A stretch of DNA of 64,000 bases. It comes from Spinacia oleracea. Lineage: Eukaryota; Streptophyta; Magnoliopsida; Caryophyllales; Amaranthaceae. The notes under the pieces are model-generated. The model did no database searches, was not told where the DNA came from, and saw only the letters and a list, made by a program, of their open reading frames with translations. The stretch lies in the NCBI RefSeq assembly GCF_020520425.1, contig NC_079488.1, forward strand, positions 91,183,285 to 91,247,284. Direction: 5' to 3'. Every line of letters begins with the position of its first letter. The first letter of the stretch is position 1. A program made the translations under genes and the position numbers. Shown here one piece after another: positions 13,275-56,777 of the stretch.

Positions 13275-13948
13275 TCTCTATTCTATAATAGAGCTCTTGA
13301 AGTCATTTCGTAAATGCTCTTTTGGTATCCCCTATAAAATAGTCTAAAATACCCTTCATATATAACTTCATCACCAAATTGAATTAGTTAAAAAAGTTGA
13401 ATGTTTTATGACTTTGAATTTAATTAATTTAAAATCGATTATTTAACGCAAATCACCAATTAAAAAAGTCTAATGCAAATCAAGGATTGAATCATGTAAT
13501 CTCTAAAAAAGACATAAAAGAAAATTAGTCAATTAATACTATTTACCAATTTTATTAACATTAATAGTAAAATAAATAAAAAAGTATAAAAGAAAAATAT
13601 TTAGTCAATTAGATTTAATCGCAACAGACAAACAATCAAAAATTTAAAAAAAAAAGTCATAATCAAACATTTAATCATAACCAAATATACTCCTTATTTT
13701 TCATGTAATATTCTTTTCCTTTCAAGTACTTTATTATGTCACATTTTTGTATTGTCAGAAATCAATCATATTTTAATTTAAAATTTGTAAACAAAATTTA
13801 ATAAAAGAAAAATACTCTGTAATAAAAATACATCCCCTATGATTGATGTCTACTTTTTTTGTAGAGAAAGTTTGCAAATATTTTTTTCTACAAAACTTAA
13901 TTTTGTTTTTTATATATATCTGCACGCATCGCGTGCATATAAGACTAG
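13275..13948 (+). mobile_element. Non-autonomous Helitron, 674 bp
   Basis: Begins TCTCTATTCTATAATAGAGC after an A and ends CTAG before a T. The 3' hairpin GCACGCATCGCGTGC (13922-13936) and the tail ATATAAGACTAG are identical to those of the large gene-capturing Helitron at 52356..56777, so both belong to one 3'-end family. No coding capacity seen. Confidence 0.85.
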
Positions 13949-35700: not shown

Positions 35701-38700
35701 AAAGTTGCATCTTTGGTCCAAATCAAGAGGTAACTAATCGCTCTTATCCACACATTTGGTGCACACGGATAACTCAAAAGCCTGTTCTTTAGACTAACAG
35801 TTCTGATTTTCCTCTTGGAACTTGATTTCAGTGCTTTCCTTCACATTGAACAGAGCTCCCAGATATCATTATATCAACCAAGACTAGAAAGCAGATTTTG
35901 AAAAGGGCGCACCACACATCTAGGTTTTAAAGCTCCAGGAGCCACATCCCATATGCTTAGAATGGATTAGTCACACGCTTTTGATCGGGCGCACAGAGAA
36001 ATTAAGAAGCGCATCAAGTGCTTGAGGCCCATGACACACTGCTTTTTGGGATAATAATTGAAATGCTTGGTTTTTATATTCTTCAGGTTAGAATTTATTA
36101 TGGACTGCACCACCATATTATCTCTGTAACAACAGAAATCCCTAGATCGGAGTACCAAGAGTCAAGGAAGGAAAAGACAGAAAGAAGACAATGACAGAAA
36201 GGACAAGCAGCCAGTCCTTCCTCTAGCTTATTTTATGGCTTGAAGTAAATATTGCCTCTTCCCACAGCTCCTAGTTCGGATAAATGAAATGTGTAATATG
36301 GTGCGATGCTATCTTTTGTTTAACGATAAAGTGGTTGCTAATCTATGCAAGTGGATTATGTATAAGAGTGATGTTTTTATTAGTACTCGGAAGTGTGCCT
36401 CACTTCCATGAGGCGCACACATAATGCATTGTGCCTAAGCTCTAGGACCCATATTGCCTCAATGCACCTCAAGCCCGCCATTTCACACTGCTGGATAACT
36501 TGTGTTAGGAAATAAACACAACTTATGTCAACCGGCGGGATCTCGAGTCGGAGCCTTGAAGTTACATGCTAAAATAAATAAGAAACACGAGTCAACTAAG
36601 TATCTTGAGGGAGTTAGTGTTGTAATGGAAATCTTCAAGGGGGAAATACACGTACTCCATAAGATTGTTGAATTGCCAATTGGTTTCTTGTTTATTATGT
36701 TTAGTTTCCTAGTTGAATACATAATGTAAATAGGAAACTAGATATATTTTGGCATGTACCAATCTCTATAAATTATTTAGACTTGGGGTGCAAGTATAAT
36801 TCTAATTCTAGTAGAAGAGGGTTTCTAGTTTAGCTTATAAAAGGAGGGTTTAGGCCTAGCTAGAAAGTGAGAGGGAAAAACACATTGGTGAGAGGAATCA
36901 TCAATTTGGGGGTTATTGTATTATTTTGCAGGAACTTAATAATACGATATTATTTGAGGGGAAGAAATATAAATTTCCTCGTAAACACTTGTGTCCTTTT
37001 AATGTTTTTGCTATTTGTTCTGCATTGTACTTGCAGGGTTTGTTCCTAATCCTTCGTGGCACGTGCTTGGTTATAACAAGTTGCTTAGTCATCTGCTTCA
37101 AAAGAAAATTCAGAACAAGTACTAATTATCAAAATCAGCTCTCTGAATACCTCAGGCTTCCCTGTTGAAAGAATACGAACTAAAGATGATTTCCCAACAT
37201 TAGGGGCTCCAACAAGAGACAGTGTTGGAGTTTCCAGATCAACCACTGGCATAGCTCGTAAAGTCTGCAATGAAAAATGAATCATAAGGGAGAGGCTAAC
37301 AGCGTTTTAGTAGCTTATGCACAAGTAATTTGACCTAGAATCCAGATATAGATTATTTAATAAACATCACAAGGTAGAAGCACGTGAATCAGATTTGCAG
37401 GGGCATGAATATAGGGCAGTAAAAAACATAGGTGATTTTGTCCAACATTTAACAAAGAAACACTTGCTTAAACCCTAACAAGCACCAAAATTTGGTAAAA
37501 AATGGTCGCAATTATACAATTTCAGAACATCTCAAGCATGGCGCCCATAGTGAGGAGTCACATCCCCGGTTTTTAAAAGTTGGCTAACCTCAACCATTTT
37601 TTAAAAGTTGGCTAACCTGACGTGACACTCTACCAGTCACCATTAATCCCATATAGAGACGATCACAGTTCAGAGGGCGTACATTTACTAATCAAATGAT
37701 CAATTGTCAACCAAGATTTTTCACAACTTCATTCGTCCAACACGTGTGATGATAAATCAGTAGTAAAATTGAGTTCACCATTTACAATTTTTAGCCAAGA
37801 GGTTTGCATGCAGAGGAACTGATAACAGAATTTGTTTAGAAAATGAATAACCTGTGCATGCTATCCACAAAAGGTTAAATAGAGATCACTAACAGTTTCC
37901 CCTACAATGCAATTGAAGGAAATAATGCCCTTGGTCCAAGTATGCATTCTATGTTAAGTCTAATAAATGCGGTTCAGTATTAATTAACAAGTTAATAATT
38001 CAGTGAGATCAAGTGAGCTGAATGCCTAGCTAGAGGCCGCTTCAGTTCAAGTGGAATTAATGATATTAATCCACAGCTTACTCTTGACTGAACCCGTAGG
38101 GTCACACAAATAGTACGTAAACGGATCAAGTATTTAATGGCATTAAATACTCTATCTATGGATATTCGGAATCGACGGATCTTGGTTTCAGTGGGAGCTG
38201 AGATCGTCACAAGCAAGAAATGAATACTCCGGAAACGATGATATTGCCGGAAACGGAAATATGGATCGTATCGGAAATATAAATATTATCCAAGTCGTAG
38301 ATGTTGCCGGAAACGGAAACATGGTACGTATCGGAAAATATTATCGGAAATGGAAATATTGCCGGAATCGGAAATATTGCCGGAAACGAAAATATTGTCA
38401 GAATCGGAAATATTATCGGAATCGGAAAATAATTCCGGAAACGGAAATATTAAATATTTGTTCGAAACGGAAATTAATTCCGGAATCGGAAATATTAAAT
38501 ATTGTTCGTATCGGAAATAAATTCCGGAATCGGGAATTTAATCGGAAGCGTATCGTACGAATTAGCATCGGACGAGGCCCGCTAGACGAAGGCCCAGCAC
38601 GAAGGCAGGCCATCGCCCAGTGAGCCGCACGCACCAACGCACGCCTCGACCAGGCCCAGCGCAAGGCCAGGCCCAGCCAAGGGCGCGCGCGCGCAGCACA

Positions 38701-52355: not shown

Positions 52356-52645
52356 TCTCTATTATATAAAGGAACAGTTGAGGTCTTTTTGGTAAAATAA
52401 CTTTTCGTGTCCCCTTTTGAAAAGTCCGTTATATCCTCACATATCTCTCCTTCTGTTTCGTTGTTTATGCACTCTCTTCAGTCTTCCCCTCTCACTTTTC
52501 TCTCTATTATATAAAGGAACAGCTGAGGTCTTTTTGGTAAAATAACTTTTCGTGTCCCCTTTTGAAAAGTCTGTTATACCCTCACATATCTCTCCTTCTG
52601 TTTCGTTGTTTATGCACTCTCTTCAGTCTTCCCCTCTCACTTTTC
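52356..52645 (+). repeat. 145-bp tandem duplication of the Helitron 5' end
   Basis: Copy 1 52356-52500 and copy 2 52501-52645 both run from TCTCTATTATATAAAGGAAC to CCTCTCACTTTTC with only a few substitutions (CAGTTGAGG/CAGCTGAGG, AGTCCGTT/AGTCTGTT, TATATCC/TATACCC). Confidence 0.93.
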
Positions 52646-53564
52646 TCTCTCCTCCCTTTTCCCTCACTGACCCATTCGTAGGGTTAGACATTCTCGCCGT
52701 CTCCTGCGATTTCTCCCCTCCATCTCTCCCGCAACTGCGATTGACTCGGGTGCTGCTTCCTCATACTCAAACTCCATATCGTCGTAGGTTTCAAGCTCTA
52801 CCAATTCGCCTTCAATGGCGAAGAATAGAGGAAATGGGGTTTCTGGGAGGTCGTTTCGTCGATTTCAATGGCGTCGTCGGAGATTGTGGTCTCAGGTACT
52901 AATTCTATATCGAAATTTAAAACATGGTTTTCCATTTAAAATTTTAAGTGTGAAATTTAGGGATTTAATTTGATTTTAGGGTTTTTCGCCAGGTTAATTT
53001 GATTTTAGGGTTGTCCGCCATGTTAATTAATTAGTTTTTTTATTGTTTGATTTTAGGGTTTACATAATTTTCCGGCGGATTAATTAGTGATTTGGGTTTG
53101 TAAAACTGCAGACTGTTGCTATGAATTTTATAATGAAGCATGGGAAGGGTGATTAAGATCTTCACAATCTTAGGAAGGAGATTAAGGTAATATTTGATTA
53201 ATTTTTATTCTAAAAACGGTAATTGGTTTCATACATGGGAAGTTTGGACTTTGAAATTCAAATTATTAGTTGCAATTATAGTTGAATTTTCTTAATTAGT
53301 GTACTTCTGAATCATGTAACGTACTTGATGATTGGCGCTGAAAATGGAATGAAGGTTTGTGGGTTTGTTGAAACTGTACAGCTTAAACTGGGTGCTGAAA
53401 AGGCATTTGAATATAATAGAGATTTGTTCAGGATTGAAATCAGTATGACAGGTTTTGATTATAATTAAGGAAAAGAATTAAAATCTGTCAAGCTGTTGAT
53501 TACTTCTGCCATTAGAATTTAGGAGGGGGAATTTAATGGTGAAAAGTGTCTCATTTGTTTGTAG

Positions 53565-53687
53565 GTTGAGGATCAGTACAAGAAAGCGTTAGAAGAAGAC
53601 CCGTCCGTATTTGATTACGATGGTGTTTATGATGATATAAAATCGAAAATGGTTCAGTCGAAAGCCGAAGATAGACAGCAACGACAG
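53565..53687 (+). pseudogene. Captured exon of an NSRP1/CCDC55-like splicing regulator
   Basis: A 41-codon open exon bordered by TTTGTAG on the left and CAG|GTAATT on the right. The translation holds KKALEEDPSVFDYDGVYDD, the hallmark of the DUF2040 (nuclear speckle splicing regulatory protein 1) domain. The rest of that gene is missing, so this is a fragment. Its splice signals are intact and could still be used in a chimeric transcript. Confidence 0.75.
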
Positions 53688-54305
53688 GTAATTGTCTAAC
53701 AATTCAGTCATTGTGTTTGTTAATTTGGATTTCATTTGTTTAAGTTTTTGGAGGTGTTGTTAAACCTTTAGGTATGCAATAGTTTGGGTTACATTGAACC
53801 AATCTTTTGAAAGGCGGTGTTGAACCGTTATCAATAATTTGACACGTTCTGTTTAGTAGCTAATCATTTGTTGTTGTTTCTTCGGATTTGTTTCTGTTGT
53901 TGCAACACCAATTTTACAATCTAGGGATTTTAATTGCTATTTTGTTTTCGTTTTTGCAATTTTAATTACTAATTGAAAGCATATGTGTAACGATGTTTTG
54001 CTTTTGATTAGGTATTAGAAATCTAATTTGGATTCCTAATAAGTTCTGCCTACAAGTCTCTATTTAAATCTGATTTGGATTTCGGAATCGATTTTTTTGT
54101 ACAATGTATGATTGAATATTGATTTTTTGGTGATTCAATTTGATTGGTGGTTTTGTTAGGCGAATGCGTTTGTGGAAGGTGTCACGCAAAATCGATGAAC
54201 TGGAGAGATCTTCCTGCGTTGATGGTGGTGATTTGACGACTGATGGTGGTGCCTTATCAGGATTTTGGCAAATCGCCAGTCAGTTGCTCGGTCATAGGAG
54301 CGATA

Positions 54306-55066
54306 GATGAGATATATATATCAGAATTGGAACACAAAGTTCAGACTTTACAAAATGAAGCTACAACTTTGTCTGCACAACTTACATTATTGCGGGTACC
54401 ATGATCATTGGTTTAGAAGTGCGCACTTTGTTGAATATCATTCGTGTGACCTTAACTGAAATTTTCTTTTGTGAACAGAGAGATTTTGCTGGACTTTCCA
54501 GCCAAAACAATGAGCCGAGGTTCCGTCTACAAGCGATGGAGCAACATCAAAAGCTTCGTGGCGGTATGATTTCTATTCTATAAACAAATAAGCAGTAAGA
54601 ATTGTTATGAATGTGGCTGGTATCAATTTGTTCTCTGAGTTTGCTAAAGGTTTGTCGTCTTTGGTCTAGAAGTCTAGAACACTGTTTCAATTATCATAGC
54701 TCTATCTATATGAACCAAATCAACCAACCTTCCCAACCCCCCCGTTCAAAAAGAAAAAGAAAGATAAGAACGGTAAGAGATTGAATCACAGCGTGGTGTT
54801 CGTGCAACATGCTCACATTCTGGTTATGCTGTCATGATAAACAATTAATTCATTGATAGTTAAATCATTTAGAAGTTACCTCTTCTTGGTAGTATAGATA
54901 TATAGTAGCAAATCTCATTGAGTTTTCTATATCTTTGGCAGCTCTAAATGAAGCATTAACAAAGGAATTACAATGCTTAAGGATAGCCATAGGAGAGCTG
55001 AACGCTAAGTCCATATTCAAGTGTTTTGGGCAGCAGCTTTATGTCAATCCGCAAATGTACCAGTAA
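54306..55066 (+). pseudogene. Captured C-terminal part of a VIP1/RF2a-type bZIP factor
   Basis: Three exon-like segments with splice borders in place: about 54306-54395 ([19 protein letters not shown]... leucine-zipper start), 54479-54563 (RDFAGLSSQNNEPRFRLQAM) and 54942-55066 (ALNEALTKELQCLRIAIGEL... then QQLYVNPQMYQ and TAA). This order and intron placement match group I bZIP proteins (VIP1, RF2a). The basic DNA-binding region and N terminus are absent, as is the usual longer tail; substitutions (for example FKCFG) suggest decay. Without the basic region it could at most dimerise with bZIP partners. Confidence 0.8.
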
Positions 55067-56110
55067 TAGGGTTGGTCTAGATTATATTGTTTGCTCTGGT
55101 CGTCGTTCTTTGATTACTTCCTTTATCAGTTTGCTTTTAAGTTTCTCTCCTAAAATCTTTCAGTGATAAAATTGTTGTTCTATGTTGATCAACCCTATTC
55201 AATTATGTTGCATGTGTGACTAATAATTTGTTTCTCATGTCAGGTTTGCAAATTCTTTACAGTTAACCATAATGATATGGATACCCTCCAGAAATGATTG
55301 TTCCCTGCTGACATTTTCCAGGTTTGTTCTTTTTCTTCATATTGTTTTCACTCTTTCAGTGATTTCAAGAAAACTGAAAACAAGAAGTTTACTTATTGAA
55401 AACATGAAGTAATGGGGTTGATCTACAAAATATTGTTTGCTCTGGTCGTCGTTCTTTAATACTTCATGTTTTCAGTTTGCTTCGTCAGTTAATCAGGTTC
55501 AATTCCGGTTCTTTATTTTATTGTAATTTTTTAATTGAATGTGGAATTTCAGTGTTTAGAAGTTAACATACGATGTCGGTTTGTGTGATATTGAGTAAAT
55601 TGTGGAATTGTCTGCAATTTTGGATGAGAATGAGAGGAATTGTGTTCTGTGATATTGAACAAATTTTTGTATATCACGTGTTATTGAGCAAAAATCAATA
55701 CACTGCAAGTTTTATTGATCAAATTTTTGCTGCTGATGTATTTTCTCTCTCATACCTTTTTTATTTAATTTGTTTTGCGCCTTTTGATGTCGATTTTGAT
55801 GAATCTAGGGTGTAATTAGTTTGTGAATTCAACTTTGTTTTGCGATTGTTTAAACTTTTGATTGAGTATTTTAATTTCAGATGCCTATTGTTTGTTATTG
55901 ACCACGTTGAATCTAGGGTCTCCAGCATTTTTGAGATGATCGTATAACCAGGCATTGATTTAATGTTGTTCAGTTGTTGTTGTTTAGCCATGATTAAGCA
56001 ATGGATTTTGGTTTGCAAATGTTAATTAGCTTGAAATTGCATGAATTGATTGAAATATGTACAAAATCAACGGATAATTGCTGATCTGCATGTTCTATTT
56101 TTTGGTGTAG

Positions 56111-56317
56111 GTTTTGGAATTGGAAGGAAATGCTGCAAGAGACAACAAGAAAACTCGAATTTTGGGGGCACTTCTTCAATTGGCAGTAAGAAACGACGAG
56201 GAGCTAAGCAAACTTCTTGGTGATGTGACCATTGCTAATAGAGGTGTGATGCCCAACTTCCACAACCTTCTTCTCTCAAAGAAGGCTGGTGGCAACAAGC
56301 CTACTGAAGATTACTGA
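56111..56317 (+). pseudogene. Captured last exon of histone H2A
   Basis: Begins after TTTGGTGTAG and is open to TGA for 68 residues. [37 protein letters not shown] and the C-terminal KKAGGNKP tail identify the C-terminal half of plant H2A. The first exon (N tail, helices 1 and part of 2) is missing. The normally invariant PRHIQ segment reads LGALLQ, and GGV reads RGV. A non-functional copy is likely; it could supply a 3' end for a chimeric transcript. Confidence 0.85.
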
Positions 56318-56777
56318 AGATTTGATTTAGTGATCAAATGAAAATGTGGATCTCAATAGAACCCGAAAACTCACTGTTGTCGAATGTTCAATAGATTTTA
56401 TAGGAATGTAGTTAGTGTATTAGGGGTTTCTTATCATCTCAATGATTAATTTATGTTGCTGGAGAATCAAGGATCAGTCAAGTAAAAGCTTTAAGCATCA
56501 CAAATTTACACTAAACATCTCCATTTTTATCAACAAGGAAGCTATACACAATTTCAACTTACAGGCGAGCAAAAATTCAACTGCGGTACAGGAAAATGTA
56601 AAGATGGAAATAGAATATTTGGCCTGTTTTGATGCAAGATAAAATCAATAAGCTTTTGAAATACTGAGTTCATGTCCCGGATTTATATTTTGATTTTTCA
56701 TTGTGATATATTTGTTGTAACAATACAATTTTAAGTTTTTTAATGATTTCGCACGCATCGCGTGCATATAAGACTAG

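Follow-up and report, generated by a model that had tools for sequence, protein, structure and literature searches.

Helitrons of maize are reported to have TC...CTAG termini and a hairpin near the 3' end, to insert between A and T, to carry gene fragments and to give rise to chimeric transcripts (PMC2267711; PMC4528327). For the Helraiser element, read-through past an old 3' end has been described, by which a new 3' end is gained and downstream DNA is transduced (PMC4778049), and in the composite FoHelis of Fusarium oxysporum the presence of several 5' termini is attributed to nested or self-insertion (PMC5148889). The origin of Helitrons that hold pieces of several genes is debated, serial capture, read-through and exchange all being considered. 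Here we analyzed an element of Spinacia oleracea located at 52356-56777 of a stretch of 64,000 nucleotides (NC_079488.1, positions 91,183,285 to 91,247,284, referred to as the window), which had been proposed from its letters alone to be a Helitron that captured fragments of three unrelated genes. Our results suggest, with a probability of about 0.75, that this element is a mosaic of earlier gene-carrying non-autonomous Helitrons that was later amplified. It resembles the maize elements, as far as those reports describe them, in termini, hairpin, A^T target and gene-fragment cargo, and it differs from them in its host and in that its ends and most of its cargo blocks were matched to two Helitron subfamilies of the same genome. 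Like Helraiser as portrayed in that source, it appears to have bypassed an old 3' end and acquired a new one; unlike Helraiser, the new 3' end would come from another gene-carrying Helitron, and the parts past the join were replaced, not just added. Since the gene loci, the related elements that bear these blocks and the finished mosaic all occur in one genome, the joins are directly readable. The features of the element are the following:

52356..56777, plus strand: whole insertion, a non-autonomous Helitron with TC...CTAG ends, 3' hairpin, A^T flanks, further copies and insert-free sites
52356..52500, plus strand: tandem extra copy of the 5' terminal 145 bp, in the window copy only, 98% identical to 52501-52645
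52501..53393, plus strand: Block I, the family 5' end and first cargo, about 97% identical to Helitrons L016/L018/L019 and L020
52751..52970, plus strand: exon-like piece of unassigned origin (ATG at 52815, splice donor after 52895), 88% identical to L035, with other partial matches
53017..53379, plus strand: fragment of a FUSED/TIO-type kinase gene (exon 2 with some of intron 2, preceded by the end of exon 1 or by the beginning of intron 1), 91.7% identical in DNA to L038
53394..53524, plus strand: sequence joined 5' of the NSRP1 piece, with the same join in other elements
53525..53877, plus strand: fragment of the NSRP1 gene that includes exon 53565-53687 and the splice sites on either side of it, Pfam NSRP1_N E=1.1e-9
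53867..54246, plus strand: Block III, a sequence within Helitron L027 (both L027 ends seen), 93.9% identical
54249..55066, plus strand: bZIP gene fragment, exons 54261-54395, 54479-54563 and 54942 to the TAA at 55064-55066
55062..55136, plus strand: direct repeat, copy 1
55408..55482, plus strand: direct repeat, copy 2, 81% (ungapped) or 87% (gapped) identical to copy 1
55476..55729, plus strand: block common to L021 (an H2A piece with its Helitron 3' end seen and its 5' end not found), 92.9% identical
55728..56452, plus strand: histone H2A gene fragment, comprising an intron, the stop-bearing exon 2 (56111-56317) and 3' untranslated region
56453..56777, plus strand: 3' part with the Helitron 3' terminus, common to L021, L022 and L037 and not to the H2A locus L028
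56751..56765, plus strand: 3' terminal hairpin with a 6-bp stem, GCACGC-ATC-GCGTGC, 8 nt ahead of CTAG

The two ends of the element have different relatives. Over 110 nt at the 5' end, identity is 98% to the Helitrons L016/L018/L020 and 59-68% to L022, L024, L025, L027 and L036; over 150 nt at the 3' end, it is 91-93% to L021/L037 and 39-56% to L016/L018/L020. L022, an H2A-carrying Helitron with both ends, is 79% like the element at the 3' end and 59% at the 5' end. Judged by these identities, the element has its 5' end from one Helitron subfamily and its 3' end from a second. Between the ends, the majority of the blocks, though not every one, are also present in other elements with Helitron ends, often in a form closer than the gene locus found. 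The gene pieces proposed earlier to lie on the same strand with their splice sites do so, all of them being in plus orientation with GT or AG at each border examined, and the NSRP1, bZIP and H2A fragments were confirmed; a fourth, exon 2 of a FUSED/TIO-type kinase, had been overlooked. The alignment to the genome that was advised for finding donor genes led to intact-looking loci for NSRP1 (L040), bZIP (L023) and H2A (L028). What did not hold is a simple capture of three genes, for most of the blocks recur in other elements with Helitron ends.

The kinase interval 53017-53379 matches L032 and L038 at 91.7% and L033 at 83.7%, and the kinase block is 95-97% identical to Helitron-borne copies, vs 91.7% to the gene locus. 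Exon 2 (53112-53186) reads TVAMNFIMKHGKGD*DLHNLRKEIK, with an in-frame TAA, and L038 is an intact kinase locus that reads GEGSFGKVYKGRRKFTGQ / TVAMKFIMKHGKSDKDLHNLRQEIE / ILRKLKHENIIEMLDSFE, with the neighboring exons intact. The homology to this locus was computed; the family name FUSED/TIO is assumed from the match between its exons and the N-lobe of that kinase. The 25-residue piece alone yielded no kinase from PDB phmmer or Pfam, and 52815-52895 was ruled out as TIO exon 1, given that L038 matches the element only from 53017.

The NSRP1 block is one of two whose borders are shared with other elements. Over 53394-53709 it is 96.8% identical to L034, 94.4% to L036 and 88.6% to L026, compared with 88% to the NSRP1 gene (L040) over 53525-53877, the two sets of values covering partly different intervals. 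The gene matches only from 53525 on, and 53394-53524 was not found in the 421 bp fetched upstream of this match; the same upstream sequence adjoins NSRP1 in the L016 family, L034, L036, L042 and L026, and partly and weakly in L047 and L048. A tree split with an ultrafast bootstrap of 99 sets the element, the L016 family, L034, L036, L026 and L042 apart from the gene, on whose side six further NSRP1 copies lie. The NSRP1 exon occurs at 20 genomic places, 7 of which are copies of the element, and the next NSRP1 part at one. The gene at C1:102182178 was taken as the NSRP1 donor because it is the sole place where the next NSRP1_N segment (positions 45-118) was found, and L026 is unsupported in this role. 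The exon gave no credible match in PDB (best E 0.4). An 11-nt overlap at the join between NSRP1 and the L027-like block was considered as clean microhomology and failed on inspection of the source sequences.

The other shared border lies behind the H2A fragment. Its exon at 56111-56317 matches a PDB chain named Histone H2A.6 (E=4.1e-29) and Pfam Histone_H2A_C (1.1e-14), with 57 of 67 residues matching L028 and the PRHI motif lost. In the intron part the element is 92.6% identical to L022, 92.1% to L021 and 93.1% to L037, vs 91.1% to the locus L028; in the exon part the values are 91.2% for L022, 90.3% for L028 and 83.9% for L021, the exon being lost in L037. L028 diverges at 56453, where L021, L022 and L037 stay with the element. 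Both joins are common to elements and were absent from those parts of the genes that were examined. It is therefore most likely that the element inherited its NSRP1 and H2A blocks from other elements, and the two joins argue for exchange between elements.

The bZIP fragment, which we take to be VIP1/RF2a-like, starts near 54261 and not at 54306 as initially placed. Intact counterparts of all three of its exons are found at the genomic locus L023. A query made of the joined exons, with two stops written as X, gave bZIP_1 at E=6.1e-6, just below the Pfam cut-off (26.7 vs 27.6 bits), and the basic region has two TAG codons and a 2-bp insertion. The 3' part is 93.0% identical to L025, where a Helitron 5' end is seen, vs 83.2% to L023.

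Based on these data, we propose an ancestor that had one type of 5' end and the FUSED/TIO kinase fragment and to which an NSRP1 block, an L027-like Helitron block, a bZIP block and an H2A block would have been joined blockwise in a single polarity. The H2A block would have come last, bringing its own, different Helitron 3' end. The joining most likely took place during rolling-circle copying, which would have passed the old 3' end or switched to neighboring or nested Helitrons. Relative to L020 at 53393 and to the L016 family at 53621, the downstream sequence is replaced, and read-through only adds; therefore template switching or recombination is also needed, possibly among Helitrons whose ends serve as insertion sites for one another. 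The finished mosaic would then have been mobilized in trans, presumably by a source elsewhere, to give at least seven copies, its gene pieces being decayed passengers. A broader reading, which we offer tentatively and hold to be slightly less probable than its contrary, is that the gene fragments form a cargo pool shared among Helitrons with different ends, so that exons spread mainly from Helitron to Helitron, largely without new contact with host genes.

Several observations weigh against a mosaic origin. In addition to the replacements at 53393 and 53621, which read-through would leave unexplained, the identity of the element to the H2A locus L028 (90-91%) differs little from that to L022 (91-93%) and, in the exon part, exceeds that to L021. 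L037 is without the H2A exon, so that only the shared join argues for descent of H2A from elements; if the donor were another H2A paralogue, the sequence past 56452 might be native 3' untranslated region. The 5' part of bZIP is slightly closer to L023 (86.0%) than to L024 (85.3%), and the true bZIP donor may be a locus other than L023; six more places in the genome match bZIP. Among the loci compared, nothing but the element's own copies matched the block 55067-55475. Only the 5' end was seen in L025, L036 and L042 and only the 3' end in L021 and L037, and L034 and L026 have no Helitron end in the DNA fetched. The comparison upstream of the NSRP1 gene match covers 421 bp only, and L047 and L048, which have part of the upstream sequence, group with the gene in the tree. 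Finally, the insert-free sites described below cover L014, L009 and L011, the window copy not being among them.

The explanation that survives best beside the mosaic is a serial direct capture, in which one Helitron picked up fragments of host genes successively. In its favor, the pieces are exon-intron DNA in a single orientation with splice sites, as described for maize Helitrons, intact-looking gene loci exist for all four pieces (L038, L040, L023 and L028), and in the case of H2A and of the 5' part of bZIP these loci match the element as closely as the Helitron copies do. However, it leaves the match of the 5' and 3' ends to different Helitron subfamilies unaccounted for, as well as the joins of the NSRP1 and H2A blocks that are common to elements and lacking in the examined gene stretches, and Helitron-borne copies are the closer match for the kinase, for NSRP1 and for the 3' half of bZIP. 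We consider it unlikely, at roughly a quarter of the weight given to the mosaic.

The genome was searched in an assembly of 894 Mb in 242 contigs, six of those met being 115-189 Mb long. The search for further copies with the same ends that had been advised found at least six near-full ones elsewhere, 98-99% identical and with differing flanks, hence at least seven with the window copy, a lower bound as 40 of 2171 candidates were scored. Because of these copies and of insert-free target sites for three of them, 52356-56777 is one unit. The claim of proper Helitron ends and A^T flanks stands: the 5' terminus of the window copy reads TCTCTATTATATAAAGG at 52356 (TCTCTA start) with A as the preceding base, CTAG runs up to 56777 behind the hairpin with T as the next base, and the flanks in their insert-free form would read CTTGAATA joined to TATTAAAA. 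Every structural hallmark of Helitrons that was checked is present, namely TC/CTRR termini, 3' hairpin, A^T insertion without target duplication and dispersed copies with the same ends. No RepHel protein, which only autonomous members should have, was found in the element, in which a six-frame Pfam scan (E up to 1) gives only NSRP1_N and Histone_H2A_C.

Of the seven copies, six start with TC preceded by A (A|TC) and all end with CTAG followed by T (CTAG|T). The A|TC...CTAG|T arrangement is direct in four of the other copies and appears in a fifth, L011, after discounting a 358-bp mini-Helitron in its 5' end. The exception is the copy at L013, with a 5' end 7 nt short and a 10-bp flanking direct repeat, TTACAGTATA (L013 about 1991-2001 and 6275), which is non-canonical for a Helitron. 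A search with joined flanks recovered insert-free target sites for three copies: L014 (38 of the 41 matches listed, the site being a repeat), L009 (95%) and L011 (100%). The copies and these sites uphold 52356 and 56777 as joint boundaries in the window, with the reservation that the 5' end of the family corresponds to 52501.

A further possibility is that the element is a young chimeric gene, with predicted splicing into a conserved fusion protein (NSRP1-bZIP, or one ending in H2A). Splice sites are present, and 183 codons including the stop can be read without interruption in the window copy (exons 52815-52895, 53565-53687, 54261-54395, 54479-54563 and 54942-55066). This reading requires, however, that the kinase exon with its TAA be skipped, and it is open in one of the seven copies: the six others all have one extra T in the first exon and a stop at codon 29. 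The chimeric product ending at the H2A stop that the original prediction had envisaged is not supported as a protein, because the bZIP reading hits the TAA at 55064-55066 at the block end. In addition, there are the stops in the bZIP basic region, and the H2A exon lacks the PRHI motif and has a stop inside it in the L009 copy. Exon sites are not detectably less variable than the rest of the element (15 of 750 variable columns vs 87 of 3458 elsewhere, p=0.51, the first exon, with 3 of 82, being left out). Because the 183-codon reading is open only in the window copy, a conserved chimeric protein appears unlikely, and we regard a chimeric gene as a very improbable account of the element. A neat chimeric reading in a single copy can be due to chance, a point relevant to gene annotation. 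As for separate insertions lying together by chance between Helitron-like ends, the distinct histories of the blocks would fit them, but six near-full copies with the same arrangement elsewhere, three of them with insert-free target sites, already refute this idea and leave it next to no probability.

The double 5' end of the window copy can be considered apart from the mosaic. The 145-bp duplicate is missing from all six other near-full copies; its outer unit has T23 and T79 and its inner unit T72, none of which occurs in the other aligned sequences, and the joint of the duplicate falls in a shared TCTCT. It resembles the FoHelis, as depicted in PMC5148889, in having several 5' termini with one 3' terminus and a duplicated 5' part of <200 bp. 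A nested A^T insertion as its source is disfavored and fits poorly because the base preceding the inner end is C and not A; unlike what that source reports for FoHelis, the C before the inner 5' end at the TCTCT microhomology is better suited to a simple tandem duplication. The extra 5' end is therefore best read as a later local tandem duplication, presumably arisen in the window copy.

Other Helitrons were observed next to or inside the copies. The 358-bp Helitron of L011 lies at 1633-2001 in reverse orientation, inside the 5' terminus of the copy, and the L011 and L012 copies are about 1.5 kb apart on C6, inverted relative to each other. The L010 copy (6289 onwards) is directly adjoined by an AAGCC-type Helitron 5' end minus its first four bases; judging from this case, one Helitron seems to insert into the end of another. 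Among related elements with other gene pieces, L020 carries Vps4_C in sense and L027 shows a weak similarity to a bromodomain that falls short of the Pfam cut-off; at E 0.05, Pfam gave no family in L016 and L037 (three sense frames) nor in most frames of L020, L022 and L027. The NSRP1 exon copy at L042 has a Helitron 5' end nearby and is about 6 kb from the NSRP1 gene on C1, and in L026 ribosomal L37e exons adjoin the NSRP1 exon.

At the level of the genome, 790 exact matches of the 28-nt 3' end and 249 of the 22-nt 5' end were counted, with none for the reversed controls, and 14 of 27 5' ends (among the matches listed, on C1 only) have a 3' end on the same strand within 10 kb downstream, the three controls giving 0. 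Helitron_like_N (PF14214) has 154 matches in the genome, some in open frames of >1000 aa. A repeat survey reports a Helitron cluster for B. vulgaris alone and none for Spinacia (PMC7840529); the exact-end counts of 249 and 790 suggest that such Helitrons were under-annotated in that survey. Among the papers listed by searches on Helitrons with histone H2A, on Helitrons with template switching, and on chimeric or mosaic Helitrons, no title or abstract opening was seen to describe the element, and the exact 3' end had 0 matches in viral_contigs. Elsewhere in the window, a repeat-like reading, GSWFQWELRSSQARNEYSGNDDIAGNGNMDRIGNI, was noticed by eye at 38147-38620 and also in L034 (about 1821-1934) beside the NSRP1 exon, and a second small Helitron of 674 bp with A^T flanks lies at 13275-13948, agreeing with the element at 28 of 29 positions of the 3' end pattern.

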